Below, piece by piece: positions 22,970 to 37,304 of a DNA stretch of 57,419 nt. The DNA is taken from the NCBI GenBank assembly GCA_013001285.1, contig JABDMU010000054.1, forward strand, positions 1 to 57,419, written 5' to 3'. This DNA is from Flavobacteriaceae bacterium (GTDB lineage Bacteria > Bacteroidota > Bacteroidia > Flavobacteriales > Flavobacteriaceae). The notes beneath the pieces were generated by a model, which had not been told where the DNA came from, made no database searches, and saw only the letters and a list, made by a program, of their open reading frames with translations. The position numbers and the translations under genes are program-made. Numbering within the stretch: the first letter of the stretch is position 1; every line of letters begins with the position of its first letter.

Positions 22970-24193
22970 ATGGGTTTAAAAAGTAACTTACATAAAATTA
23001 AAGAAAAGTATAAAGGAAAGAAAATGGCACCTGCCTTTAATGCCATTCATACTTTTTTGTACTCTCCAAACGAGACTACTCATGACGGAACGCATATAAA
23101 GGTAGTTGACGATTTAAAAAGAACCATGAATACAGTGATCATGGCCTTGGTGCCATGTTTAATATTCGGGATGTTCAATGCTGGTTATCAACATCATCTT
23201 GCCTTAGGCGAAATTGAAAGTGCAACAAATTTTTTCGATACCCTATTTTGGAATTGGGATAATTTAGTGATCGGACTCTGGAAAGTATTACCACTAGTAG
23301 CTGTATCTTATGGTGTAGGTCTGGCTGTAGAATTTGTTTTTGCTGTTATTAAAGGACATGAAGTTGAAGAAGGCTATTTAGTTACGGGTATGTTAGTGCC
23401 TTTAATAGTGCCAGTTGATATCCCATTGTGGATGCTTGCAGTAGCCGTAGTCTTCGGTGTTGTAATTGGAAAGGAAGTCTTTGGAGGAACTGGAATGAAT
23501 ATCTTAAATCCTGCCTTAACCATACGTGCCTTTTTGTTCTTCGCCTATCCTACTTGGATGTCTGGAGATAAAGTATGGGTACATGGTGCTGTTGAACGCG
23601 ATCAGATGATCGCTGCTGGCGAAAACTTAGATGCGATATCTGGAGAAACTGTTTTAGGTAGTTTAGCTCAAAATCAAGATGTAGGCTATTCGATTTGGGA
23701 CATGTTCATAGGATTTATTCCAGGATCAGTAGGTGAAACATCTGCGCTTTTAATCTTAGTTGGAGCCTTATTTTTGATCTTTACAAAGATAGGAAGTTGG
23801 AGAATCATGCTGTCTTGTGTGCTGGGAGCCATTGCAATGGGCTTGATCTTTAATTTCGTTGTAAGCTCAGAATGGATCTCAGAATCAAGTAAATTTTATG
23901 GATTGATGAGTACCACCTGGTGGCATCATCTCATAATTGGTGGATTTGCTTTTGGAACAGTTTATATGGCAACCGATCCAGTTACGGCATCTCAAACCAA
24001 TAAAGGTAAATGGATCTATGGCTTTTTAATTGGGTTCATTTCTATACTAATTCGTGTATTCAATCCTGCATATCCTGAAGGTGTGATGTTAGCAATTCTA
24101 CTGATGAATGTCTTTGCGCCAACCATTGATCATTATGTGGTTCAAGGAAATGTGAAACGCCGACTTAAACGTGTTAATGTAAAAACAGCTTAG
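22970..24193 (+). CDS. nqrB: Na+-translocating NADH:quinone reductase subunit B
   Basis: Integral-membrane subunit with about ten helices, carrying riboflavin and a covalently bound FMN; it forms the main Na+ path. The N-terminus (KMAPAFNAIHTFLYSP, then DDLKRTMNTVIMALVPCLIFG) and GKEVFGGTGMNILNPALTIRAFLFFAYP are typical. The flavinylation site reads DAISGETVLG (about residue 220-229) instead of the usual SGAT: the Thr that would take FMN is kept but Ala is Glu; I re-read the codons (TCT GGA GAA ACT). YMATDPVTASQTNKGKWIYG near the C-terminus is conserved. 407 aa, full length. Confidence 0.97.
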   Translation: MGLKSNLHKIKEKYKGKKMAPAFNAIHTFLYSPNETTHDGTHIKVVDDLKRTMNTVIMALVPCLIFGMFNAGYQHHLALGEIESATNFFDTLFWNWDNLVIGLWKVLPLVAVSYGVGLAVEFVFAVIKGHEVEEGYLVTGMLVPLIVPVDIPLWMLAVAVVFGVVIGKEVFGGTGMNILNPALTIRAFLFFAYPTWMSGDKVWVHGAVERDQMIAAGENLDAISGETVLGSLAQNQDVGYSIWDMFIGFIPGSVGETSALLILVGALFLIFTKIGSWRIMLSCVLGAIAMGLIFNFVVSSEWISESSKFYGLMSTTWWHHLIIGGFAFGTVYMATDPVTASQTNKGKWIYGFLIGFISILIRVFNPAYPEGVMLAILLMNVFAPTIDHYVVQGNVKRRLKRVNVKTA

Positions 24194-24195
24194 AC

Positions 24196-24987
24196 ATGGA
24201 AAAGAGAACAGATAAAAATATATACACAATAATCTTCGCCATTGGAATGGTGATTGTTGTTGGTGCTTTATTGGCATATTTAGCCTCATCATTAAAACCA
24301 CGTATTACGGAAAATCAGCGTTTGGAAAAACAACAGAATATCCTATATGCAATGGGAATCAATGAAAATGATGAAACGAATGCCAACTTTATTTCTACCG
24401 ATAAAGCACCCGAAGCTTTTCAAATGAATATTACCGATCAAGTGGTCATTACAATTGACAATACAGGTAAGGTTTTAAAAACTCAGACCCGAGATGAGTA
24501 TGTTGCAGAAACCAATCAAGAGCCATATTTGATCGACGTTAAAAAACAGCAAAATAATGCCAAGGAAGGTCAGCCTAGAAAGCTACCATTATTTGTAGGT
24601 GAGCGCGACGGGCAAACCTACTATGTGGCACCAATTTATGGTAAAGGCCTTTGGGATGCCATTTGGGGTTACATTGCAATGGATGAGAATATGGTCGTAC
24701 AAGGTGCTTATTTTGATCACAAAGCAGAAACACCAGGATTAGGAGCCAATATTAAGCAACGCTTCTTTATGGATGATTTTTATGGAGAACATTTACTTTC
24801 TGAATCAGGCGTTTTTAAAGGAATTACTGTTGCTAAAGGTAATGCCGATCCAACAAACAAAGACAAAAAAGATAATGAGGTTGATGCCATAGCCGGAGCT
24901 ACAATTACTGGCGATGGAGTTTCAGCAATGATACGTTCAGACTTGAAATTGTATGTGCCTTATTTCAAAAATTTAAAATCGAATTAA
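24196..24987 (+). CDS. nqrC: Na+-translocating NADH:quinone reductase subunit C
   Basis: Membrane-anchored periplasmic FMN-binding subunit of Na+-NQR. One N-terminal helix (IYTIIFAIGMVIVVGALLAYLA) is followed by a soluble FMN-binding domain. WGYIAMDENMVVQGAYFDHKAETPGLGANI is the family pattern in part; the covalent flavin site is DAIAGATITGDGV (Thr about residue 237), matching the ApbE target consensus with Ala for the first Ser. Length 263 aa agrees with the family. It begins 2 bp after nqrB and ends 2 bp before nqrD. Flavinylation is expected from the apbE product encoded at 36.3 kb. Confidence 0.97.
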   Translation: MEKRTDKNIYTIIFAIGMVIVVGALLAYLASSLKPRITENQRLEKQQNILYAMGINENDETNANFISTDKAPEAFQMNITDQVVITIDNTGKVLKTQTRDEYVAETNQEPYLIDVKKQQNNAKEGQPRKLPLFVGERDGQTYYVAPIYGKGLWDAIWGYIAMDENMVVQGAYFDHKAETPGLGANIKQRFFMDDFYGEHLLSESGVFKGITVAKGNADPTNKDKKDNEVDAIAGATITGDGVSAMIRSDLKLYVPYFKNLKSN

Positions 24988-24989
24988 TT

Positions 24990-25637
24990 ATGGGTTTACT
25001 TTCAAAAAAAGATGCCAACTTAATACTTGATCCATTAACGGATAACAATCCAATTACCATACAGGTTTTAGGAATTTGTTCTGCTTTGGCCATTACTGCC
25101 GAGTTAGAAGCTTCTATCGTTATGGCCATATCAGTGATATTTGTACTTGGTGTTGGTAATGTTGTGATATCACTAATGCGAAATATCATTCCTTCAAAAA
25201 TTAGGATCATCGTTCAATTGATCGTAGTAGCAACACTCGTAATTATAGTTGATTTGGTACTTAAAGCTTTTGCATACGAATTAAGTAAAACCTTATCGGT
25301 GTTCGTTGGATTAATCATTACTAACTGTATTATCATGGGTCGCTTTGAAGCCTTCGCTTTAGGAAATGGTGTTTGGAAATCCTTCCTCGATGGGATTGGA
25401 AATGCACTTGGTTATGGCGTTATATTGATAATCGTTGGATTTTTCAGAGAACTATTAGGGTCAGGAACACTTTTAGGAATACCAGTGCTTGGAGACCCTA
25501 TTGCAAAAACTGGATTGTACAGTATTGGATATGAGAACAACGGATTTATGCTTTTATCACCAATGGCATTGATCGTGGTGGGGATCATCATCTGGATACA
25601 ACGTACTAAGAATAAAGCATTAATTGAAGATAATTAA
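24990..25637 (+). CDS. nqrD: Na+-translocating NADH:quinone reductase subunit D
   Basis: Integral-membrane subunit of Na+-NQR, one of the NqrD/NqrE pair that together bind the intramembrane 2Fe-2S centre. Six hydrophobic helices in 215 residues. The first half-site Cys is in [19 protein letters not shown] and the second in [19 protein letters not shown], as expected for the inverted pair. [13 protein letters not shown] is conserved. Spacing: 2 bp after nqrC, 23 bp (or 44 bp to the preferred ATG) before nqrE. Confidence 0.97.
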
Positions 25638-25681
25638 AAAAGATAGGTCATTCAATTGAAATGACTTCAACATCACATACT

Positions 25682-26410
25682 ATGGAACACGTAGAATTAT
25701 TTTTTAAATCAATATTTATCGATAACATGGTATTTGCCACATTTCTGGGAATGTGCTCATATCTGGCGGTATCTAAGAAAGTGAGTACTGCAGTTGGACT
25801 AGGGGCAGCTGTTATATTTGTACTTGCTATTACGGTGCCTTTAAACTGGTTGTTAGATCAGTACATATTACAAGAAGGCGCCTTAGTTTGGTTAGGTCCT
25901 GAATTTGCTGCTTATGACTTGAGCTTCTTATCGTTTATCATGTTTATTGCAACCATTGCAACTATGGTACAATTGGTTGAGATCGTTGTAGAGAAGTTCT
26001 CTCCAGCACTGTATAACTCCTTGGGAATCTTTTTACCATTAATTGCTGTGAATTGCGCCATATTAGGTGGTTCACTATTTATGCAATCACGAGAAATAGC
26101 AACTTTTGGCTTAGCTCTTAATTATGGAGTCTCTTCAGGAATTGGATGGTTTCTTGCAATTTTAGCCATTGCGGCCATTCGTGAAAAAATTAGATACTCA
26201 AACGTTCCTGCTCCGCTCAGAGGATTAGGTATTACTTTTATTATTACTGGATTAATGGCCATAGGATTTATGAGTTTCGGTGGTATGCTTACTGGTGGTG
26301 ATGAGGAAACGGTAAATGAAGAAACTACAGTAAACGTTCAACCTGAAGCTGAGCAATTAGAACAGGTTGAGAATTCAGATGACACAGCAGTTTTGGCTGA
26401 AACAAATTAA
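25682..26410 (+). CDS. nqrE: Na+-translocating NADH:quinone reductase subunit E, with acidic C-terminal tail
   Basis: Partner of NqrD in holding the intramembrane Fe-S centre: Cys in [14 protein letters not shown] and in [15 protein letters not shown]. Six helices fit the family (about 200 aa). I prefer the ATG giving [19 protein letters not shown], which matches the usual NqrE N-terminus; an ATG seven codons upstream (25661) would add MTSTSHT. The protein ends with about 40 extra residues rich in Glu/Asp ([14 protein letters not shown] ... [10 protein letters not shown]) after the last helix, an extension not seen in Vibrio NqrE. It is followed by nqrF after 3 bp. Confidence 0.96.
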
Positions 26411-26413
26411 AAG

Positions 26414-27736
26414 ATGATTTACACAATGATATTACAAGCAGGTACATTTGGAACAGTTTTAGCAACCGTCGTGGCATTCTTATTTGTGACACTATTATTG
26501 GTTGCATTACTGTTATTTGTAAAACAAAAATTATCACCTTCTGGTCCAGTAAAAATAATGATCAACGGTGAACGCGAAATAGAAGTGGCATCAGGAAGTA
26601 GTTTATTGACTACTCTTGGTTCTGAAAAGATCTTTTTACCATCGGCTTGTGGTGGCGGTGGAACTTGTATCCAATGTGAATGCCATGTGCTTTCGGGTGG
26701 AGGTGAAGCTCTACCAACAGAGACCCCACATTTCACAAGAAAAGAATTGAAACAAGGCGCACGTTTGTCATGTCAGGTAAAGGTGAAACAAGATATGGAG
26801 ATCACAATTCCGGAAGAAGTTTTCGGAATTAAAAAATGGGAAGCAACTGTTGTTCGAAATTATAATGTGGCGTCTTTTATTAAAGAATTTGTAGTCGAGA
26901 TCCCTGAAGATATGGGCTATAAAGCTGGTGGATATATTCAGATTGAAATTCCACCATGCGAAATAAAATACGAAGATATCGATATCACAGCGCATCCTGA
27001 AGAACACGAAACGCCTGATAAATTTCAACCAGAATGGGATAAATTTGGATTATGGCCATTGGTTATGAAAAATACTGAAGTTGTAGAACGCGCCTATTCC
27101 ATGGCTTCTTATCCTGCGGAAGGGCGAGAGATCATGCTCAATGTTCGTATTGCAACACCACCATGGGACCGTTCAAAAAATGGATGGATGGATGTTAATC
27201 CTGGTATCGCGTCGTCTTATATCTTCGCTCAAAAGCCTGGTGATAAGGTAACCATCTCAGGACCATATGGTGAGTTCTTCATCAATGAGTCTGAAAGTGA
27301 AATGCTTTACGTTGGTGGTGGTGCTGGAATGGCACCAATGCGTTCGCACCTTTACCATTTGTTCAAGACCCTAAAGACTGGTCGTAAAGTGACTTATTGG
27401 TATGGTGGACGATCAAAACGTGAGTTATTCTATATTGAGCACTTTAGAGAACTGGAAAGAGAATTCCCGAACTTTAAATTCTACATGGCTTTATCTGAAC
27501 CTTTAGAGGAGGATAACTGGAAAGTAAAAAAAGATATCAATGACGAAGAAGGTGATGGATTTGTAGGGTTTATTCATAATTGTGTGATCGATAACTACCT
27601 AAATCATCATGAGGCACCGGAAGATATTGAATTGTACTTCTGTGGACCTCCTTTAATGAACCAAGCGGTTCAAAAAATGGGAGAGGACTTCGGAATTCCT
27701 GATGAACATATCAGATTTGATGATTTTGGAGGATAG
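26414..27736 (+). CDS. nqrF: Na+-translocating NADH:quinone reductase subunit F
   Basis: NADH-oxidising entry subunit with one N-terminal helix (GTVLATVVAFLFVTLLLVAL), a 2Fe-2S ferredoxin domain with Cys ligands in PSACGGGGTCIQCECHVL and RLSCQVKV, and an FNR-like domain: FAD-binding ERAYSMASYPAE, NAD-binding MLYVGGGAGMAPMRSHLYH and C-terminal ELYFCGPPLMNQAV. Electrons pass from FAD to the ferredoxin centre and on to NqrD/E. At 440 aa it is about 30 longer than Vibrio NqrF, with an insertion after ECEIKYEDIDITAHPEEHE-like residues in the FAD domain. Last gene of the operon, followed by a strong terminator. Confidence 0.97.
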   Translation: MIYTMILQAGTFGTVLATVVAFLFVTLLLVALLLFVKQKLSPSGPVKIMINGEREIEVASGSSLLTTLGSEKIFLPSACGGGGTCIQCECHVLSGGGEALPTETPHFTRKELKQGARLSCQVKVKQDMEITIPEEVFGIKKWEATVVRNYNVASFIKEFVVEIPEDMGYKAGGYIQIEIPPCEIKYEDIDITAHPEEHETPDKFQPEWDKFGLWPLVMKNTEVVERAYSMASYPAEGREIMLNVRIATPPWDRSKNGWMDVNPGIASSYIFAQKPGDKVTISGPYGEFFINESESEMLYVGGGAGMAPMRSHLYHLFKTLKTGRKVTYWYGGRSKRELFYIEHFRELEREFPNFKFYMALSEPLEEDNWKVKKDINDEEGDGFVGFIHNCVIDNYLNHHEAPEDIELYFCGPPLMNQAVQKMGEDFGIPDEHIRFDDFGG

Positions 27737-27760
27737 TCATTTTAACATGATATAATATAA

Positions 27761-27790
27761 AACCCAGCATATGATGCTGGGTTTTTTTAT
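27761..27790 (+). terminator. Rho-independent terminator of the nqr operon
   Basis: AACCCAGCAT pairs perfectly with ATGCTGGGTT around an ATG centre and is followed by six T residues, 24 bp after the nqrF stop. It separates nqrF from the convergent protease gene. Confidence 0.9.
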
Positions 27791-27822
27791 GAGCTCTATT
27801 AAATAAGAACACAATCTTATAA

Positions 27823-30800
27823 TTATTTCTTTATTATTTTATAAATCATCCTTTCACCATGTTGCTCATAAATGAAAAACAGGATTCCGGGTTTGAAATC
27901 AGATACATCAATTTGAATATTTGATGATCCTTTCAAATGATAATCTTCTTTATGTAAAAATCTACCGGTTTGATCTAAAATTATAATGCTTCCCTCAACA
28001 TTGTTATCTGGAAACTTCAGATGGACGAAATCGCTAACTGGGTTAGGATATAATTTAAGTTGTTCATCATTTAGTTCATTTAATACTGGAAATTCAGGTT
28101 CAGATTGATCAAAAGGTTGAGCCAAAGTTTCCGGACAAGGATCTGCATTTGAACCATTCGCCGATTTGGAAGCACTACTACAACCTTGAGTGATGACTTC
28201 CCATTGTAACCTGCCTCCATCTGTATAGATATAAAAAATATGTGTTCCTGGTAAAAATAGTTCTGGTGGTGATCCAATAAATTCTGCGTTTCCTTTTAAG
28301 CGATTATTTGTGCCATTAGGGATATAAATAGGCACATCTAATAGGTTGGTATATTCAAACTGTAGTAAGGTTGTTATGCTGGGGTTCTCAGGTAATGTTG
28401 CTGGACTTTGACAAATCCCAGAGGCTTTTATTCGTTCATTACATCCAACTACTGGGTTTACAAATAATGACCCTGGCGTTTGTGTAATGGTATAAGTATC
28501 GTAACCTGTAAGGCCTGAAAGATCGGCATATACTATATATGTTCCTCCAGCCAAGTCACCCGTTTGAATAACGCCGTTTTCGTCTTCAATAATAAAATTT
28601 GTAAAGGTTGGAGTCGCATCATCACATACAAGTCCGGTTGCTACAATACTGAAATCAGTTGGAATCGCATCGTCCTCTGATATTAACGACGATCCTATTT
28701 CCAAATGAAGATCAGCGTTTACGATAGTCAAATTACCGGGTTGATAACTGATATTATAATTATTTAACTGAATTTCGGGGGATACAGAAATGGTTGAATC
28801 TTGAGTACAAGCATCATCAGGAGTAAATGATAGTTCTCCTAATAGCTCTGAAATATTTTCATTGAAGGGTAAAACTTCTGGCGTTGTACTTATACCGAAT
28901 TCTGGTAGATCTTCCTGACCATAGGTTATCGTTGCATCATCTGCGGTCACGGTTAGATCTGCTGGTAGGATGACAAGCGCTGTTGGCTTATACTTGATCT
29001 CAAAATTGGTGTCTAAAATACCACCAGGAATTACATATTGGGTACCAGCATCTATCCCTGTAATAACATTTATTGGTTTAATATCAATAGGAACTTCACC
29101 TAAGGCATCATCACCATTCAGAATGACCAGGATATTTTCGAATGCATTTAAAAGGGGTGTACCTTCACTATTTACTAAAGGAATACCATTGACAAGGGCT
29201 AAACCATTGACAAGTGCTAAACCATTCACTATGGAGAGTCCGTTGACCAAGGAGAGTCCGTTTACCAGACTTACGCCGTTAACCAAAGGAATCCCATTTA
29301 TAAGTGCGAGACCATTCACTAAGGAGAGTCCATTGACCAATGAAATTCCATCTGTAATTGAAGAGAAAGTTCCATCGGCGATAGCATCCTCAGAAAAAAG
29401 ATCAGCTCCAAAGTTGACAAGTTTTTCAGTTCCATTTCCATTGACCAAAGAAAGACCATTCTGTGCTAATGTGCCTGACATATCAACCGTGTTTTGTGAG
29501 ACGAAGAAGGATTTATTGACCAATGAAATACCGTTAATGGTTGGTTCGTCGTTTACCAGGGAAATCCCGTTCACTAAAGAAAGACCATTAACCAAAGAAA
29601 TACCATTGACCAAAGACAAAGCGTTCACATGATTTACGGCAAAGGTGTTGGCAACTCCCGAATCTACCTCCAAATCGGTTTCATCTGGTGTTCCAAAAGA
29701 ATAATCAAAACTAATATCTGGTAGCGGGTCACCATAACTTATGTCATTCATGGCTTGTGGTGATATAGTTACTTGCATTGGCGTTATATTTAAGACACCT
29801 GGCTCAATAATAAAATTATATAACTCTAACAAGGCAACATTGACATCGGTTAAAGTCAATTCGATAGCATAGATGCCTACATTGGAATTGGGAGCAGCAG
29901 CCGTTGCCATTGAAACTGATGGTAATAAAAGATTCAGTTCTTCTAGTACAAGAGGATCTTCGTTATCACCAACCTTTGTTATGAAGGAAAACTCAGGATC
30001 TGCTTCACCATATCTTCGTGAAGCACTATCGGGTTGCAGGATTACATCTGTGATGATGGGATCATTAAAAGTTAAAATTTCTGATGTACCACCATCTGAG
30101 CCATTTGTTAATGGACCAGGTTCAGTATACACATAGATGGGAGGATTCCCCATAAATTCTGGTATGATAGCAGTTAAGGTATTGGTATCAACAAAAGTAG
30201 TTGCTATCTCTTCGCCACGAAATATCACGACAGATGATTCATCAAAGGAGTTGCCCTCAAGAATGAGCTCAAAGGCTATATCCCCAGGATTGTAAATTGA
30301 TGTATCTAAATTTTCAAGATTAAAACTTATCAGGTTTGGCGATGGATTTGAAAATGCACCAATGGATTCATCGGCTAAAATGAAACCATGACCAGTTTTA
30401 TTATCGAAACCAGCAAGCTCCATATCAATGGCATTGTCTGCTAATAAACTACGGACACTTAAATTTGGGTCTGAATTCGCAATATCAACGCCGAAGGTTG
30501 TCTTGGCTTCGATAATTAAGGCCGCTACACCAGCGGCATGCGGTGCTGAAGCAGAGGTCCCGAAGAAATTGGGTAATGAATTGCCATCAAAATCAGGTGC
30601 CCCCAATTCTACTGAGGTATCTCCTCCAGTGGGCGCCATGATATCAGGTTTGTTTCTTAAAAGACCATTAGTTGTTGTGCCTCCAAGAGATGATGATTCT
30701 TGGGCTACAAGTGCTCCTCCATAATTGGGCGTATTATCATAACGAACTGCGCCAACCGTAATTGCTCCTTCTGCGTTAGCATGACCCACAACAGTTGAGC

Positions 30801-32748
30801 TATTTGCTGGTGGTACAGCTTCAAAATCTCCATTTTCTCCAGCTCTAAATACCACATATTTGAACATGGGTGGCGCACCGGTCCCAAAGGCGTTCTCAAT
30901 GACGATATTAGTTGTGGTTGGGTTGATTACTGTGAAGGGCATAATTTCAACAGGATCTGCGCCTAAATTATTTCTGTTGAACCCATATTGTATATTACCA
31001 TCATTACCTGCGAGGTAAATATCCATATCATTCATTGCACCAGTATTTGAGCCAAACGAATAGAAATCATCATCCCATTGAAGAACGACGATATAAGATC
31101 CAACATCCAAATTGAGTTGTTGTAAAGCATTATTTCCGCCAAAATCGTGACGTAATGGATTTGATGCAGATGGTGAAAATGTAGACTGATAAGATCGTGA
31201 GCCAAAATTACCAGCAGATGTAAAATAACTCACACCATTGTTGGTTGCTTCGTTAATGGCATCAGCAATGATACCATCTCTAAAGAACGGTGCTTTCATA
31301 TAGGTGAGGTCATCTACAATGACATCACAACCCAAAGTGACAAGTTCAGCAATTCCTGCTGCCATGTTCCCTTCCGATATGAATCCAGTTCTAAAATACA
31401 ATTGAGCATCGGGTGCAACGTCATGTACGATTTGTAGCATAGCGCGACCTTCATCACTTGCTACTCCAAAGGGATAATCCTGTACAACAGTTATAGGATT
31501 TTCAGCTCCTGGAAGGTCTTGATTTACAATGTCAGTTTGTACAGCTGCACTGGTTCCGGCAACAACTCCAGATTTTCTATCAAAACTATCTGAGATAACG
31601 CCCACTTTAATATTATCACCAGTTACATTCCATCCTAATCTCGCAATATTTGAATTTTGAGCTGCGTCACCTTGGCTATCAATGAGTCCTGCATTTGGTA
31701 TAGGTGGAGAAACTTCATAAACTTGGTTGATAATATCAGATCGTGGATTGAGATCAGTAAGATTAGCAATTGGGAAGAACACAGTAATCACTCGTTCGTC
31801 ATCTTGTGGGTTATATACATCTGAGATATAGTCATCAGGATTTATTCCAAAGCTGCTTAAAAACGCAGCTACAGCATTAAATTGACCATTGAAGGTGACG
31901 ACCTCTATAAGGACTTCATCATTTTCATTAATGATGTATATGAATGTGTTATTTGGCTCGTTTGGATCGTAATTGTTAAAAAGGGAGGTTAATGCTGACC
32001 CAATGATATCATCAACTTTGGAATTGGGAGGATATCCGGGTAATATGTCACAATTAACTAGAATACATTCACATACCGCGGCAACTTCTGCTTCTGTGCT
32101 AGGTGAACCTGGGAGTCCGCTGCCTCCTTGACTATAAAAATAAATTGTATTTGAGTCCCAAGTACCAGAGTTGTTGATACTTCCATTTTCAGTTTTTATG
32201 CTTCCAAGACCTGAAACTGAACCATTATTTAAAAAATTACCTTCTATTAGTTGAACACAAGCATTGGTCAATACTAATTGAGTGTCATTTATAAAATTAC
32301 CATCTTTTATCATTATCGCATTGGTAAGCTGAATGATGCCTTGATTTTTAAGTACGCCAGGTCCAATGGCAATTTCACCCTGATCAACAACCAATAGGCC
32401 TCCTGAGTTCACATTAATATTACTTGTTGTTGTAAATTTTGCATTATTGAGAACATACAATTCAGCGTTGTTTTTTAATTTTATGGGATTATTAGTAATG
32501 AAAATGATATCATGATTGATGGTAATTGTAGCGTTATTTATTTCGTAATTTGGGAACGGATTATTGTTGCAATTACCTCCTGAGCAATCCCAAGCTGTTG
32601 GATCTTCCCAGTTGTCAGATAAACCTGTAGTTGTATAGTTTTGTCCATTTACCCAGAGAGTAAATAACAAAAAAAATAAACTTGATAATATAATGTTGTT
32701 GGTTGGTTTCGTGGTGAAGTAAAAACCACTTGCAGTTGTAGATTTCAT
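27823..32748 (-). CDS. Giant T9SS-secreted subtilisin-like peptidase with hexapeptide-repeat tract and MBG domains
   Basis: A 1641-residue exported protein. Order: signal peptide (to VNGQ, about 36); a strand-rich region like a parallel beta-helix (about 70-200, repeating patterns such as NNGSVSGLG); a subtilase/sedolisin-like domain (about 370-800) with VGVISDSFD (Asp about 385), DEGRAMLQIVHDVAPDA (about 432-448) and GTSASAPHAAG (nucleophile Ser about 731); an Ig-like segment; MBG-type domains (ITPMQVTISPQAMNDISYG; LTVTADDATITYGQEDLP) interrupted at about 1040-1193 by 16 copies of G-[LIV]-[SAP]-[LI]-[VI]-N; and a T9SS sorting domain (LYPNPVSDFVHLKF ... YKIIKK, about 1563-1641). Where subtilisins have the HGT histidine this protein has Glu (DEGRAM). 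Substrate unknown; a cell-surface or adhesive role is inferred. Confidence 0.88.
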   Translation of the reverse strand: MKSTTASGFYFTTKPTNNIILSSLFFLLFTLWVNGQNYTTTGLSDNWEDPTAWDCSGGNCNNNPFPNYEINNATITINHDIIFITNNPIKLKNNAELYVLNNAKFTTTSNINVNSGGLLVVDQGEIAIGPGVLKNQGIIQLTNAIMIKDGNFINDTQLVLTNACVQLIEGNFLNNGSVSGLGSIKTENGSINNSGTWDSNTIYFYSQGGSGLPGSPSTEAEVAAVCECILVNCDILPGYPPNSKVDDIIGSALTSLFNNYDPNEPNNTFIYIINENDEVLIEVVTFNGQFNAVAAFLSSFGINPDDYISDVYNPQDDERVITVFFPIANLTDLNPRSDIINQVYEVSPPIPNAGLIDSQGDAAQNSNIARLGWNVTGDNIKVGVISDSFDRKSGVVAGTSAAVQTDIVNQDLPGAENPITVVQDYPFGVASDEGRAMLQIVHDVAPDAQLYFRTGFISEGNMAAGIAELVTLGCDVIVDDLTYMKAPFFRDGIIADAINEATNNGVSYFTSAGNFGSRSYQSTFSPSASNPLRHDFGGNNALQQLNLDVGSYIVVLQWDDDFYSFGSNTGAMNDMDIYLAGNDGNIQYGFNRNNLGADPVEIMPFTVINPTTTNIVIENAFGTGAPPMFKYVVFRAGENGDFEAVPPANSSTVVGHANAEGAITVGAVRYDNTPNYGGALVAQESSSLGGTTTNGLLRNKPDIMAPTGGDTSVELGAPDFDGNSLPNFFGTSASAPHAAGVAALIIEAKTTFGVDIANSDPNLSVRSLLADNAIDMELAGFDNKTGHGFILADESIGAFSNPSPNLISFNLENLDTSIYNPGDIAFELILEGNSFDESSVVIFRGEEIATTFVDTNTLTAIIPEFMGNPPIYVYTEPGPLTNGSDGGTSEILTFNDPIITDVILQPDSASRRYGEADPEFSFITKVGDNEDPLVLEELNLLLPSVSMATAAAPNSNVGIYAIELTLTDVNVALLELYNFIIEPGVLNITPMQVTISPQAMNDISYGDPLPDISFDYSFGTPDETDLEVDSGVANTFAVNHVNALSLVNGISLVNGLSLVNGISLVNDEPTINGISLVNKSFFVSQNTVDMSGTLAQNGLSLVNGNGTEKLVNFGADLFSEDAIADGTFSSITDGISLVNGLSLVNGLALINGIPLVNGVSLVNGLSLVNGLSIVNGLALVNGLALVNGIPLVNSEGTPLLNAFENILVILNGDDALGEVPIDIKPINVITGIDAGTQYVIPGGILDTNFEIKYKPTALVILPADLTVTADDATITYGQEDLPEFGISTTPEVLPFNENISELLGELSFTPDDACTQDSTISVSPEIQLNNYNISYQPGNLTIVNADLHLEIGSSLISEDDAIPTDFSIVATGLVCDDATPTFTNFIIEDENGVIQTGDLAGGTYIVYADLSGLTGYDTYTITQTPGSLFVNPVVGCNERIKASGICQSPATLPENPSITTLLQFEYTNLLDVPIYIPNGTNNRLKGNAEFIGSPPELFLPGTHIFYIYTDGGRLQWEVITQGCSSASKSANGSNADPCPETLAQPFDQSEPEFPVLNELNDEQLKLYPNPVSDFVHLKFPDNNVEGSIIILDQTGRFLHKEDYHLKGSSNIQIDVSDFKPGILFFIYEQHGERMIYKIIKK
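29170..29349 (-). repeat. Ten tandem 18-bp units encoding the hexapeptide G-x-S/A/P-L-V-N
   Basis: Ten uninterrupted 18-bp units inside the secreted peptidase gene, coding GISLVN, GLSLVN, GLALIN, GIPLVN, GVSLVN, GLSLVN, GLSIVN, GLALVN, GLALVN, GIPLVN. Codons differ from copy to copy while the amino acids are kept, so selection on the protein is likely. The hexad matches a left-handed beta-helix period only loosely (Asn where that motif has Gly/Ala/Glu/Asp). Confidence 0.92.
29440..29457 (-). repeat. Isolated hexapeptide unit GLSLVN
   Basis: One more copy of the 18-bp unit, separated by 19 codons from the six-hexad block to its right and by a longer spacer from the ten-unit block to its left. 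Confidence 0.8.
29515..29622 (-). repeat. Six hexads (five canonical) of the same 18-bp unit
   Basis: Codes ALSLVN, GISLVN, GLSLVN, GISLVN, the degenerate DEPTIN and GISLVN. The degenerate unit still has exactly six residues, so the register is preserved across it. Confidence 0.88.
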
Positions 32749-32783
32749 AATAGTCGACTTAAATTACCTCATAAGTCTAAATC

Positions 32784-32800
32784 CTGATGATTATCATCAG
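32784..32800. promoter_or_regulatory. Perfect dyad upstream of the secreted peptidase gene
   Basis: CTGATGA-TTA-TCATCAG, seven base pairs around a 3-nt centre, 36 bp upstream of the peptidase start codon on the minus strand. It could be an operator or a leader hairpin. The rest of the 269-bp gap up to the HD-domain gene shows no gene and no clear TAnnTTTG promoter. Confidence 0.3.
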
Positions 32801-33017
32801 TATTCATAAGCCATATCTAGAAGCGGGCAAGTCGCTATGAATAATTATAAAGGAGACTATTAAGATATTGCATATCAGATGAATAACAAAATATTGAAAT
32901 GCTAATACTTTTAATTTAACATTTAATTAACATAAAGACTAATCTTATTCAGAAGTTGTGACGTTTCGACAACTTTTTATTTACTCTAGAATGCCTCTCA
33001 AAAAAAGAATATAATTT

Positions 33018-33611
33018 TTAGAGCTTTTTGGCTTTGAGTTCCTTAAGTTTTTTAATTTTTAATTTGCGGCGGTTCCATTTAGCATAGAGAGTGTGGTATT
33101 CATGATTTTCCAGAAACTTGATTTGAAGATCCAGCCATTCTTCTTCGGTTTTAATAACTCCAAGATGCAAAAACTCTTGATTCAGGTTTTCACTAAGTTC
33201 ATCGTAATCGTTTCTTCCTAAGTAGTCCAAATCAGCATCTGCAAGAATCTTATCATAAAAAGTTTTTGGTTGTTGTGGAATTTTGGTAGCTCTGATCATT
33301 TGGTTCACAATTGCTATCTCATCTTTTGTAAGAATGGGTTCTAGCATGGGCTCTATCAACGTAATGCTGCGTTCTTCATGATCAATAGGTGATACCGTAT
33401 ATCCAAAATCATGACTTATAGCAGCAATTCGAATAAGCTTGGCCATATGATCATCAATTTTATATAGCCTGATATATTTATCACAAACATTAGCCACATC
33501 AATAATATGATCGTAAGAATGATAACTTAAATGTGAAGCTAATTTCTCCTTGTATTCATCTAGAATTTGGAAACAAATATTTGGATATGTCTTTTTATTA
33601 TCAAGAGTCAT
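33018..33611 (-). CDS. HD-domain phosphohydrolase-like protein
   Basis: A 197-residue soluble protein with the metal-binding pattern of the HD superfamily: YHSYDHIIDVANV (His35), AAISHDFGYTVS (His-Asp pair near 69-70) and LADADLDYLG (Asp near 117-120). Members hydrolyse phosphate esters, often of nucleotides, but the substrate of this one is unknown; the DHEERS segment after the HD pair also resembles nucleotide-handling members. The C-terminus is Lys-rich. It lies 122 bp downstream of the adenylate cyclase gene on the same strand, so a shared role in cyclic-nucleotide signalling is conceivable but only inferred. Confidence 0.85.
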   Translation of the reverse strand: MTLDNKKTYPNICFQILDEYKEKLASHLSYHSYDHIIDVANVCDKYIRLYKIDDHMAKLIRIAAISHDFGYTVSPIDHEERSITLIEPMLEPILTKDEIAIVNQMIRATKIPQQPKTFYDKILADADLDYLGRNDYDELSENLNQEFLHLGVIKTEEEWLDLQIKFLENHEYHTLYAKWNRRKLKIKKLKELKAKKL

Positions 33612-33733
33612 GTATATCTGATTCTAAGAATTAGTATTCTTACAATTTTCATGCTTATTTTTCTCGATTATCCCCAAAATCGATTTGAATTATTATTAAA
33701 ATTAAAACAATATATATTTAAAATAATATTTTT

Positions 33734-35686
33734 TTAAGTTTTCTCACCAATTTTTTCTTCAGCATAATACATATTAAGCAATTGTTCATTCTTTGCTGTT
33801 ATCTTACCTCTATAGGTGAAATTATACTTATTTTTTAAATGTTGATAGGTGTTTTCTGAAACATTGATTTTTCCTGGTTCGGAATTACTCTCCATGCGAG
33901 CCGCTATATTTACAGTATTACCCCAAATATCGTACTGAAATTTCTTGTTGCCAACAACTCCAGCTACCACTGGACCCGTATTTATTCCAATACGTACCTT
34001 AAAAGGATAAATTCCATTTGGTGGATTCTGTTGTGTTTCCTTTACAAATTCTAAAATCTCTAATGCCGCCAATAATGCATTTTCAGTATGTGTGCTATTC
34101 TGTGTTGGCAGTCCACCAGCACACATGTAAGCATCACCAATGGTTTTGATTTTCTCCAGGTTGTGCTTTTCTGTGATTAAATCGAATTTCTTGAAAAAAT
34201 AATCCAAGCTTTGAACGAGTTCCTCAGCAGGAATTTCTTCCGCAACCAAGGAAAATTCCTTAAAATCAGTAAATAACACTGTAACTTCCTTAAAGTATTT
34301 TGCCTTTATGAATCCTTGCGCTTTTAACTCTTCAGCCGTTTCTTTGGGAAGAATGTTCAGCAGAATGCTTTCACTTTTATTACGCTCTTTTGCAAGACGT
34401 GCGTTGGATTTTTGGATAAATCTGAAACGTAAAAAAATACCTCCAGTCATAGCTAAAAACAAAGCAGCAATAGCATACAATAATCTTTTTGATGCCGTGG
34501 TGCGTTCAATTTGCGTTTGTTTTAATTCATTATCAATATTAAGCAGTTTTATTTCACGCTCTTTATTTTCCAGATCATATTGAAATCGCATGTTGCTTAT
34601 AGATTCCTCATAAGAATCGTTTCTAATAGTATCGCTTACGGCGGCAAAAAGCTGTTGATAATTATAGGCATTTCTGTAATCTTTCAAGCCTGAATAAGCT
34701 TTAGATAGTCCTTCGTAGGCATCCTTTTTATCTCGGTAAACTCCAGTAACTTCCGTTAATTTAAGCCCTTCTTTAAAATTTGTAACGGCCTCTGCATAAG
34801 CCTCCTGTTCAATTAAAACCTCTCCTAAGCTAATAAGTGCCTTGGTTTTCTCTAACTTAGCATCATTAAGGTCTGCCGCTTCTATGGCTTTTAGATGATA
34901 CTCTTTTGCCAAACCATAACTTTTAAGGTCTTTATAAGCCTTACCCATATAATTGTATGTATGAGAAAGACTATTTCCAGATCTTGTATATGCATCTAAT
35001 GCTTCATTGAGATAAGGCAAGGCTGCTTCTGGATCACCATTTTTTAAATTTAATTCGGCAATATTGATAGCTGCTGCTCCAACACCTTCATCATATCCCA
35101 TATTACTAAATATAGTCTTAGCCTTATTAAAGGATTCAAAGGCATCCTGATAGGTTGTTTCTTCATTAGAATATACGGTACCAATATTCAAGTATGCTGT
35201 TCCAACTCGAGATGAATCGTTAATTTTTTCGGCAATTTTTACTGATCTTATAAAATAATCTAAAGCCTTAGGGTCATCACCTTTTGTTTGATAAACCGCA
35301 CCTAAATTGTTTAGCAGGTTGCTTATACCAGTCTCGTCATCGATCTCCTGAAAAATGGCTAAGGACTTTTCCCAATAAATTAAAACATCGGAGAATTCTC
35401 CCTTGACATAATGACCAAGACCCATATTCTTATAGGCATAAGCCAATCCTTTTTTAAAATCGATTGAAGTAGCGAGCTCAATAGCCTCATTCGAATAAAC
35501 CATCGAAGAATCTGGCTGTGATCGAAAGAGCTGAGAAGATATTTCTATCAACGCGTTAACTTTTGTGCTATCATTTGCTTGTTCTTTGACAAGACGTTTA
35601 AGTTCTTCTATGCTTTGTCCGTTTTGACTAAAAGAATTAAGTGCCAAGAAGCTGAGAATAATAAAAAAAAGGGTGTTCCTATTCAT
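33734..35686 (-). CDS. TPR-containing membrane class III adenylate cyclase
   Basis: Membrane protein that probably makes cAMP from ATP. Layout: signal peptide or signal anchor MNRNTLFFIILSFLALNSFS; about seven to eight TPR repeats (about 50-350; for example NNLGAVYQTKGDDPKALDYF); one helix (RLLYAIAALFLAMTGGIFL, about 400-420); a cytoplasmic catalytic domain (about 460-645). Metal-binding Asp residues are in VLFTDFKEFS and TIGDAYMCAGGLP. Base-selecting residues are Lys in KIKTIGD and Asp in QYDIWGNTVNIAARM, the adenylate type (guanylate cyclases have Glu and Cys). The ATG giving 650 aa is used; the codon before it is TTG. Periplasmic TPRs may sense a ligand. An HD-domain gene follows. Confidence 0.9.
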   Translation of the reverse strand: MNRNTLFFIILSFLALNSFSQNGQSIEELKRLVKEQANDSTKVNALIEISSQLFRSQPDSSMVYSNEAIELATSIDFKKGLAYAYKNMGLGHYVKGEFSDVLIYWEKSLAIFQEIDDETGISNLLNNLGAVYQTKGDDPKALDYFIRSVKIAEKINDSSRVGTAYLNIGTVYSNEETTYQDAFESFNKAKTIFSNMGYDEGVGAAAINIAELNLKNGDPEAALPYLNEALDAYTRSGNSLSHTYNYMGKAYKDLKSYGLAKEYHLKAIEAADLNDAKLEKTKALISLGEVLIEQEAYAEAVTNFKEGLKLTEVTGVYRDKKDAYEGLSKAYSGLKDYRNAYNYQQLFAAVSDTIRNDSYEESISNMRFQYDLENKEREIKLLNIDNELKQTQIERTTASKRLLYAIAALFLAMTGGIFLRFRFIQKSNARLAKERNKSESILLNILPKETAEELKAQGFIKAKYFKEVTVLFTDFKEFSLVAEEIPAEELVQSLDYFFKKFDLITEKHNLEKIKTIGDAYMCAGGLPTQNSTHTENALLAALEILEFVKETQQNPPNGIYPFKVRIGINTGPVVAGVVGNKKFQYDIWGNTVNIAARMESNSEPGKINVSENTYQHLKNKYNFTYRGKITAKNEQLLNMYYAEEKIGEKT

Positions 35687-35930
35687 CAAAATTGCATAAA
35701 TACAAGTTCGCGGGGAGAGTTAAATTTAGGAAATTATTCGAGATAAACCTACATCTATGTTTAATTTCGATGGATTTGCACCTAGTCGAATATTATATTT
35801 TTATAGTAATTACGTATTAATAAAAATAATTGGATAATGATTTAGTGTTGTGATGGGACCTTTATTCTAAAAAAAATATTATCCTTTTCTTCTCTATTCT
35901 TATAACTTTTATTTATGTTATTTTTGTGCT

Positions 35931-36308
35931 ATGAGTAAGGCACTTTCAAAACAAGAATTACATAATCTTGCCATGAACCACGTTGGAAAAGAATTAGAAC
36001 AACGTGGCTTCGAGTTTATTGCTGTAAATAGTAAACTTAAAAAGCATCCTCAATTTGTTTGTATTGACAAGACCAATCAGTATTATTTTGTCATAGTAAA
36101 GGTGGTCATTTTACCAGATAATCCTAATAATTACGATGTTGTGTGGATGGAAGCTTTTAAAAAACATGCTCGAGAAAAAGATGCCAAGGTCTTGTTCGCC
36201 GGTGTAGGACTAGGCAATCCTAATGGTGAAAATTTACCTATTTATTTAGATGAAGACTATTTGATCGAATATAACGGCATTCAAATTATAGAGACACATC
36301 TGAATTAA
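35931..36308 (+). CDS. Conserved 125-residue protein coupled to apbE, unknown function
   Basis: A small soluble protein without signal peptide: MSKALSKQELHNLAMNHVGKEL, then a strand-rich core (GFEFIAVN, YYFVIVKVVILPDN, KVLFAGVGLG, YLIEYNGIQIIETHLN). I do not recognise a catalytic motif. Its stop codon TAA is followed immediately by the ATG of apbE, so the two are translated from one message. Similar proteins in other flavobacteria are, as I recall, often mislabelled as an NqrF subunit because they stand between nqrF and apbE; it has no ferredoxin or FAD motif. A role in Nqr maturation is a reasonable guess. A -7-like TATTTTTG lies at 35919-35926. Confidence 0.85.
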   Translation: MSKALSKQELHNLAMNHVGKELEQRGFEFIAVNSKLKKHPQFVCIDKTNQYYFVIVKVVILPDNPNNYDVVWMEAFKKHAREKDAKVLFAGVGLGNPNGENLPIYLDEDYLIEYNGIQIIETHLN

Positions 36309-37304
36309 ATGAAAAAACGCGTTCTCTTACTTTTTGTAGCACTAGCAGTTCTTGTTTTCGTATTTTTTCCTTCTGAAAAAAAGACATTAAGACTTTCAGG
36401 GGATATTTTCGGGACCACATACAGTATAATTTATTTTGATGATGAGGAGCAGGACCTTCAAAAGCAAGTCGATAGCGTATTCGCTGAGGTCAATAGGTCG
36501 ATGTCGACGTACCTTCCCAATTCCATAATTTCAAAATTCAATAGAAATGAGGAGGTCATATTTGATGATCATTTTATTGCTGTGTATTTAAAAGCCAAGG
36601 AAATTCATAGGCTTACAAATGGCGCCTTCGATCCTACAATTGGTATTGTCGTTAATGCATGGGATTTTGGCCCAGAGGGTAATCTCAAGGAGCTGGATAG
36701 CATGAAAATTGATAGTTTGATGCAATATGTTGGTTTTGATAAAATTGTCGGACCTATACCAAATTTAACGAAAAAGGATCGGCAAATCTATCTCGATTTT
36801 AATGCCATAGCCAAAGGGTATGGGGTTGATGCCGTTGGCGAGATGCTTGAATTTAAGAATATCGATAATTATTTGGTTGAAATTGGAGGTGAAATTCGGG
36901 TGAAAGGCCAAAATATAGAAAATGATAAACCATGGATGGTTGGATTGGAAGAACCAAGATTTGATGGGACACAAGCAGTATTAAAAGCAATAGCATTAGA
37001 GAATGAAGCCATGGCCACTTCTGGGACCTATAGAAAATTTAAGATCGACGATAACGGAAATCGCTATTCACATATAATAGATACAAATACGGGTTATCCG
37101 AGTAAGACCAATATTTTAAGTGTGTCTGTAATTGCCGAAGACTGTATGACCGCAGATGCTTATGCCACTGCCTTTAAAACCATGGGCATAGATAACGTGA
37201 AATCCTTTTTAAAAGCGCATCCTGAATTGAAAGTGTTTATCATCTTTGAAAATGATAGCAAGTCATTAGAAACCTTGGCCTTCAACGGTTTCCCAGAGAA
37301 TTAA
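36309..37304 (+). CDS. apbE: FAD:protein FMN transferase ApbE
   Basis: Transfers FMN from FAD to a Thr of target proteins, here most likely NqrB and NqrC. The 331 residues begin with a signal-anchor (KKRVLLLFVALAVLVFVFF, no lipobox Cys), then the ApbE fold: FGTTYSIIYFD, MSTYLPNSIISKFN, TNGAFDPTIGIVVNAWDFG, the FAD/Mg2+ site DFNAIAKGYGVDAV and GGEIRVKGQN, MATSGTYRKF, and HIIDTNTGYPSKT with TADAYATAFKTMG. Catalytically needed His and Asp residues in these motifs are present. It starts directly on the stop of the 125-residue gene. The nqr operon is 8.6 kb away on the same strand, separated by three genes on the other strand. Confidence 0.95.
   Translation: MKKRVLLLFVALAVLVFVFFPSEKKTLRLSGDIFGTTYSIIYFDDEEQDLQKQVDSVFAEVNRSMSTYLPNSIISKFNRNEEVIFDDHFIAVYLKAKEIHRLTNGAFDPTIGIVVNAWDFGPEGNLKELDSMKIDSLMQYVGFDKIVGPIPNLTKKDRQIYLDFNAIAKGYGVDAVGEMLEFKNIDNYLVEIGGEIRVKGQNIENDKPWMVGLEEPRFDGTQAVLKAIALENEAMATSGTYRKFKIDDNGNRYSHIIDTNTGYPSKTNILSVSVIAEDCMTADAYATAFKTMGIDNVKSFLKAHPELKVFIIFENDSKSLETLAFNGFPEN

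Follow-up and report, generated by a model that had tools for sequence, protein, structure and literature searches.

The repeat tract and its host protein

The window analysed here (the whole stretch of 57,419 nucleotides from a Flavobacteriaceae bacterium) contains a gene whose product carries a tract of short repeated peptides. Two further genes, encoding an HD-domain protein and a TPR-class III cyclase, precede it on the same strand. The features are as follows.

27823-32748, minus strand: open reading frame of 1641 residues carrying the tract; T9SS-sorted subtilase-fold protein with a multi-copy peptide, as predicted from its domains
28726-28956, minus strand: MBG_2 domain (Pfam) C-terminal of the tract domain, residues 1265-1341
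29170-29349, minus strand: ten tandem hexads, residues 1134-1193
29440-29457, minus strand: single GLSLVN hexad within conserved scaffold
29515-29622, minus strand: first block, consisting of ALSLVN, three hexads, DEPTIN and one hexad
29533-29550, minus strand: DEPTIN, a degenerate in-register unit (xEPTxN in close relatives)
29605-29622, minus strand: ALSLVN, the sixteenth unit, with A replacing G
29791-30036, minus strand: MBG_2 domain N-terminal of the tract domain, residues ~905-986 (3e-07, 31.4 bits, cut-off 25)
33018-33611, minus strand: HD-domain protein, second gene of the cassette (Pfam HD, 8e-05), with a homologue in 18 of 43 relative loci
33734-35689, minus strand: TPR-transmembrane-class III nucleotide cyclase, the proposed recogniser (Guanylate_cyc 9.2e-55, TPR_12 8.9e-29)

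Within positions 22970-37304, the cassette is flanked by nqr-type genes (nqrF, 26414-27736) on one side and apbE (36309-37304) on the other. The nqr and apbE products are functionally linked; no nqr- or apbE-like neighbours were found in the 12 relative loci from the contig scan described below.

The tract spans exactly 29170-29622, the coordinates given in the original prediction. That prediction counted sixteen copies of G-[LIV]-[SAP]-[LI]-[VI]-N; 15 units match exactly, but the sixteenth is ALSLVN. DEPTIN was correctly recognised as holding the six-residue register. The window holds four matches to a two-hexad pattern, against zero in 100 dinucleotide-preserving shuffles, and the commonest spelling of the unit accounts for at most 4 of the 15 exact copies. 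There is no second copy of the tract in the same genome, where the next matches have E values of 0.02 and 1.0. On the plus strand, an antisense frame of 220 residues (28970-29632) spans the tract, and antisense frames of at least 90 codons are likewise open over it in 10 of the 12 contig-scan relatives; this openness is probably a by-product of the codons of the unit.

The tract had been described as interrupting an MBG domain of a secreted protease. MBG_2 does match the protein in two stretches (2.8e-13, Pfam) that flank the tract-bearing domain on both sides, as in MBG (PF18676) surface proteins. Unlike in those proteins, the tract-bearing domain itself has no MBG_2 match, either as a whole or with its N-terminal part alone. 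The C-terminal sorting domain (Por_Secre_tail, PF18962; 4e-08, 33.9 bits versus a cut-off of 27) identifies the protein as predicted T9SS cargo, and TIGR04183 scores 21.9 bits, slightly below its cut-off of 23.

The term 'protease' derives from a Pfam match to Peptidase_S8 (PF00082; 5.1e-17, 62.5 bits, cut-off 21.8). The motif DEGRAM occupies what we take to be the place of the S8 catalytic His (a presumed position, not one set by a tool alignment), and it carries Glu there in all 43 rows covering the site. With the Asp/His/Ser sites presumed on the same basis, the Ser of GTS[AC] is present in 44 of 44 rows, and the Asp site has D in 35 and N in 8 of 43. An altered triad or a non-peptidase role of the subtilase part is possible. 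A PDB sequence search with the subtilase region returned nothing at E 0.001.

Variation of the unit between species and likeness of its copies

Whole-protein searches gave matches in 15 of 299 genomes at family level and in 20 of 395 at class level; at phylum level, 5 of 395 genomes matched a profile built from the tract domain. Each count includes the own genome. Scanning genome contigs with one hexad-type peptide pattern yielded 12 loci, a set biased toward hexad relatives, in Algibacter, Maribacter, Robiginitalea, Eudoraea, Xanthomarina, Formosa and unclassified Flavobacteriaceae. Homologous tracts were thus found by the family, class and contig searches, and the profile search recovered relatives as well; their absence elsewhere would have counted against the original prediction. 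Among viral contigs, 66 stretches matched and none was confirmed as a relative. The tract region also matched seven plasmid records. One of these is a gene on plasmid pHALHY02 of Haliscomenobacter hydrossis (L121:9902-10675), whose hypothetical product consists mostly of NVSNGV/I-type hexads; no cyclase is named among the 18 annotated features around it.

We compared the units of 44 proteins. This set is without two finds of the class search, G479 (no such unit seen) and G832 (incomplete), and without L036, which is included in the codon, within- and between-species identity and locus analyses. Consensus units were picked by us from k-mer counts, and those longer than six residues were trimmed to six for the covariation and paralogue comparisons. 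The same region with the same architecture occurs across all 44 Bacteroidota proteins, and the spelling and length of the unit vary between species. In 42 of them some 5-mer occurs at least three times in the region; the other two, G414 and G141, have variant copies. Hexad units include GLSLVN, GISLVN, GFSLVN, GFSFVN, GLSVIN, GIPLVN and NFNLVN, as well as LRGIVS, ARAIVN, AKVVTN and GKRSVN. Other relatives have seven-residue units (KFQAVVN, RFRTVLN, SFKGLAN, GSRGIAN) or an eight-residue unit (GQALGIIN), and the last residue can be Ser. Dispersed and isolated copies match the tandem copies in unit type, sequence and length shifting together.

Same-residue codons were compared between copies in 16 proteins (after removal of stray matches lying beyond the tract in three of them, those of the window, L034 and L040) and in 28 others, with G468 in both sets. 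Amino-acid identity among copies is 0.62-1.00 in the 16 proteins, and in most proteins codon agreement is near the expectation from codon usage. Over the 15 exact units of the window the value is 0.35, and the codon usage of the gene predicts 0.35, in agreement with the synonymous codon drift claimed originally. All 14 matched units of a Maribacter arcticus protein are identical, with a codon identity of 0.38 versus 0.31 expected, and so are all 13 in G153; both proteins additionally contain variants beyond the search pattern, such as ALSLVN. Codon agreement is raised in G964 (0.64 and 0.51 versus 0.37 expected), G036 (0.59 versus 0.41), G181 (0.64 versus 0.32), L042 (0.55 versus 0.39) and L043 (0.48 versus 0.35).

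Mean identity at hexad positions 2-5 is 0.77 within a protein, 0.64 between orthologous copies and 0.62 between non-orthologous copies of different species. Identity within proteins exceeds that of orthologous copies in 57 of 78 species pairs; the remaining 21 have no such excess, and the uniformity of the copies is incomplete. Since the copies are alike while their codons agree only as usage predicts, selection acts at the protein level. In most of the proteins tested, the earlier argument from codon drift accordingly holds in favour of selection on the amino acids and against recent DNA duplication.

Six genomes carry two family members each, paralogues that diverged long ago. Their subtilase parts are 45-61% identical, compared with a mean of 54% for 130 between-genome pairs, and the members sit in different groups of the tree (support 96/97 and 90/92). 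Of the six unit positions, the two members share six in G845, G964 and G997, five in G697 and G891, and three in G890. Between genomes the mean is 2.34, with at least five positions shared in 5 and at least three in 52 of the 130 pairs. Among 720 pairings the true one ranks first on its own, as it does among 120 without G997 and among 24 without G997 and G964, in a small sample whose consensus units are author-chosen.

To separate the units from their surroundings, the tract-domain scaffold was compared with the units masked, four domain ends being set by length where the end motif is missing (L097, L099, L100, L102). Between genomes, scaffold identity has a mean of 0.44 (sd 0.06, maximum 0.59). 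In G697, G845, G891 and G890 the paralogues reach 0.49-0.56, or 0.50-0.57 with the units of both members masked; the latter values are high for between-genome pairs, 3 to 20 of the 130 reaching them. Their scaffold codon identity is 0.38-0.44 versus 0.40 between genomes and, since this is the between-genome level, recent conversion is unlikely in these four; older exchange between paralogues or co-evolution of the whole domain may have taken place. The G964 pair, with a scaffold identity of 0.68, is ambiguous with respect to gene conversion. In G997 (L103, L104), conversion of the whole tract domain is likely, with scaffolds 0.85 and codons 0.72 identical and subtilase parts only 47% identical.

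These comparisons bear on a neutral account, in which the tract would be slippage-born low-complexity sequence made uniform by DNA duplication and gene conversion, acting both inside one gene and from one paralogue to the other. The probable conversion in G997, paralogue scaffolds on the alike side in six of six genomes, the raised codon identity in the five cases listed above and species that differ by single units in copy number all fit such an origin. However, codon identity is near the usage expectation in most proteins, the 14 identical Maribacter arcticus units show the codon values given above, and the spacing of copies is similar within groups of relatives; we therefore regard this account as very improbable. 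A recent slippage origin was rejected, the synonymous codons being scrambled while the residues are kept. As a recent process, slippage or duplication appears largely refuted by the codon comparison, and an old event followed by selection would remain. Likeness of the copies within a genome, together with their divergence between species, points to one recogniser behind all of them.

A constraint could also act in cis. The original prediction proposed that regular hexads could build a beta-solenoid, perhaps a stalk or a ligand- or ice-binding face with a ladder of Asn, and a structural repeat of this kind inside the MBG-like domain, be it a solenoid or a strand ladder, would force a change in one rung to spread to the others. 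Hydrophobic residues do alternate, hexad species mostly keep the register, and the scaffold segments between the blocks are conserved. The six-residue unit with hydrophobic residues also resembles the hexapeptide repeat motif of left-handed beta-helices. Unlike in those, the strict period of six does not hold, relatives having units of 7 or 8 residues, and isolated copies change in step with the others. Separate paralogous proteins with similar units need not stack together, and a PDB sequence search with the tract region gave no significant relative (best E 0.39).

AF2 (13 sequences) modelled residues 885-1265 of the window protein with a mean pLDDT of 47.6, and ten-residue blocks of the tract range from 22 to 56, so that neither fold nor disorder can be read from the model; low pLDDT from 13 sequences does not prove disorder. 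For the Maribacter arcticus relative with 14 identical GLSLVN units, the mean is 38.0 and the tract lies at 19-44. A beta-helix is seen in neither model, at this low confidence. AF2 is reported to over-predict solenoids for perfect repeats: of 78 random sequences with such repeats, it folded 32 as beta-solenoids (PMC11795689). Given that bias, the lack of an AF2 solenoid here counts mildly against one. With pLDDT too low in both models and a period of 6, 7 or 8, the conserved solenoid finds no support. The proposed stalk, Asn ladder and ice-binding face likewise find no support in a unit whose length varies and whose end residue can be Ser. We consider a structural role in cis unlikely.

A linked membrane cyclase as candidate recogniser

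The locus comparison covers 43 relative loci (12 from the contig scan and 31 from the genome searches, the window excluded), after removal of L079, L081 and L092 as duplicates or continuation. A TPR-cyclase gene lies near the subtilase gene in 36 of them, its nearest copy always on the same strand (36 of 36). The gap is below 100 bp in 17 cases and at most 1.7 kb in 35; it is 5.2 kb in one, L099, which is partial at a contig end. The order of the cassette genes differs among loci. Inspection by eye of the window cyclase shows a signal peptide, TPRs and a single transmembrane stretch, with the catalytic domain in the cytoplasm. Other recurring neighbours are the HD gene (18 of 43), a PycTM-type gene (8) and an ABC ATPase (7), all others being found in at most 3 loci. 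A histidine kinase with cyclic-nucleotide-binding and receiver domains (L090:478-2184) lies near one cyclase, and its cluster occurs in 3 of the 43 loci.

No cyclase was found in L034, L094, L095, L096, L101, L103 and L105; contig ends truncate L034 and L095, and coverage of L105 is limited to one side. Linkage is possible in the genome of L095 and L096, where another contig opens with an apparent T9SS tail followed about 15 bp later by a cyclase frame, as judged by eye. For G820 (L101), a search at E 1e-40 gave no full-length match to the TPR-cyclase. In G832, the cyclase adjoins the tail of a subtilase-like gene. The own genome encodes a second TPR-class III cyclase (L120:7307-9172, contig C69), and inspection by eye of 13 open reading frames beside it reveals no secreted repeat protein. 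Thus, this type of cyclase occurs alone too.

Since its gene is linked to the subtilase gene, the TPR domain of the cyclase is the best candidate for the recogniser. We tentatively propose that the tract is a multivalent, genome-specific ligand whose shared recogniser is most likely this TPR domain and whose binding would lead to signalling, a reading based on sequence comparisons and one that we hold to be plausible but short of probable. Many copies of one short peptide would be displayed in the secreted subtilase-fold protein, and they would stay uniform because a single shared partner of the cell must recognise each of them. The peptide, still within the exported protein or already released from it, would bind the TPR domain of the adjacent membrane cyclase in the periplasm and thereby switch the synthesis of cyclic nucleotides; the HD protein may serve as a phosphodiesterase. 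No processing site was identified. A more specific version, a system of peptide signalling or self-recognition in Bacteroidota, is rather doubtful: here the protein would be a T9SS-secreted reservoir of a genome-specific peptide of 6-8 residues, read by a periplasmic TPR domain that controls the class III cyclase, and the cyclic-nucleotide level would report kin or the cell's own product.

Covariation between the TPR domain and the unit gives a mixed answer. In the 34 loci compared, the correlation between TPR and unit distances is 0.385 given cyclase-domain distance (0 of 1000 shuffles as high), 0.093 given subtilase distance (163 of 1000) and 0.111 given both (137 of 1000). The value for subtilase versus unit distance given TPR and cyclase is 0.328 (1 of 1000), which exceeds that of the TPR domain. 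By subset, the TPR value is 0.334 (27 of 1000) in 14 loci of other families, 0.085 (366 of 1000) in 14 hexad loci and 0.539 (75 of 1000) in 6 heptad loci. Variability in the TPR domain is no higher at groove positions (2.14 bits) than at those exposed on helix B (2.26 bits), a comparison that carries little information by itself. The TPR covariation thus fades under subtilase control and the groove is not extra variable, both of which count against our preferred explanation, as do the 7 of 43 loci without a cyclase, the G890 paralogues with only 3 of 6 shared positions, the incomplete uniformity of the copies, and the signs of conversion in G997 or of possible older exchange in other pairs.

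The same results leave room for a different shared partner. The tract could be a multivalent ligand of an extracellular adhesin or matrix component, it could pair with itself in a homotypic, zipper-like manner between copies and cells, or it could be the substrate of a processing protease with drifting specificity. Such a partner explains the likeness within genomes and between paralogues equally well, the protein is T9SS-sorted, and covariation does not point to the TPR domain in particular. What it leaves unexplained is the cyclase linkage in 36 of 43 loci; besides the HD gene, no other family occurs in more than 8 of them. On balance we judge a partner of this kind doubtful.

The class III cyclase also recalls Pycsar (PycC/PycTM), and the cassette could be the sensor arm of a Pycsar-like defence in which a cyclase acts with a PycTM effector and the peptide protein serves as bait. 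A PycTM-type gene cluster member is present in 8 of 43 loci (L034, L037, L041, L043, L078, L082, L083 and L085), identified in L037 by Pfam and PADLOC and in the other seven by clustering with the L037 gene. PADLOC PycC models match the cyclase domain weakly, but only as they would match any generic domain of class III cyclases; the residues of the cyclase look adenylate-type, a further point against defence. The PycTM-type gene is absent from 35 of 43 loci, including the three closest relatives (L033, L039 and L040), and from the ten window neighbours scanned with Pfam, a scan that leaves ORF 35871-36305 outside. Unlike Pycsar, the cassette has a TPR domain and a secreted protein as partner, and PycTM is usually missing. 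This explanation strikes us as highly improbable.

Relation to known peptide-sensing systems

Taken together, the data suggest an undescribed peptide-sensing system made up of a multi-copy peptide protein and an adjoining membrane cyclase. A description of the protein family was not found in the literature searched, which comprised titles and abstract openings among the matches listed, with subscription papers mostly outside. Because no described family among those tested fits, we rate the architecture as new.

The closest parallels differ in their parts. RRNPP quorum sensing uses TPR receptors of the Rap, PlcR and NprR type and short peptide pheromones. In the cassette, too, a TPR domain is paired with genome-specific peptides of similar length, the TPR gene lying beside the peptide gene in 36 of 43 loci. 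Unlike in RRNPP systems, the proposed receptor is a membrane-bound cyclase whose TPR part is periplasmic, and a large T9SS protein contains the peptide in many copies, with TPR binding still putative. The yeast alpha-factor is made from a multi-copy pheromone precursor, and the tract protein shares with it several near-identical short peptides in one chain; here, in contrast, the copies are dispersed in a conserved scaffold that offers no identified processing site.

Short repeats of this kind, which resemble each other within a genome and in co-resident paralogues, differ between species and have scrambled codons, strongly indicate a common recogniser. Should the signalling reading prove true, the system would resemble known peptide sensing in its working and differ from it in its parts. 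With the TPR cyclase as recogniser, Bacteroidota would gain a signalling route from peptide to cyclic nucleotide, and the peptide of each species could be read from its genome and tested as a synthetic peptide.
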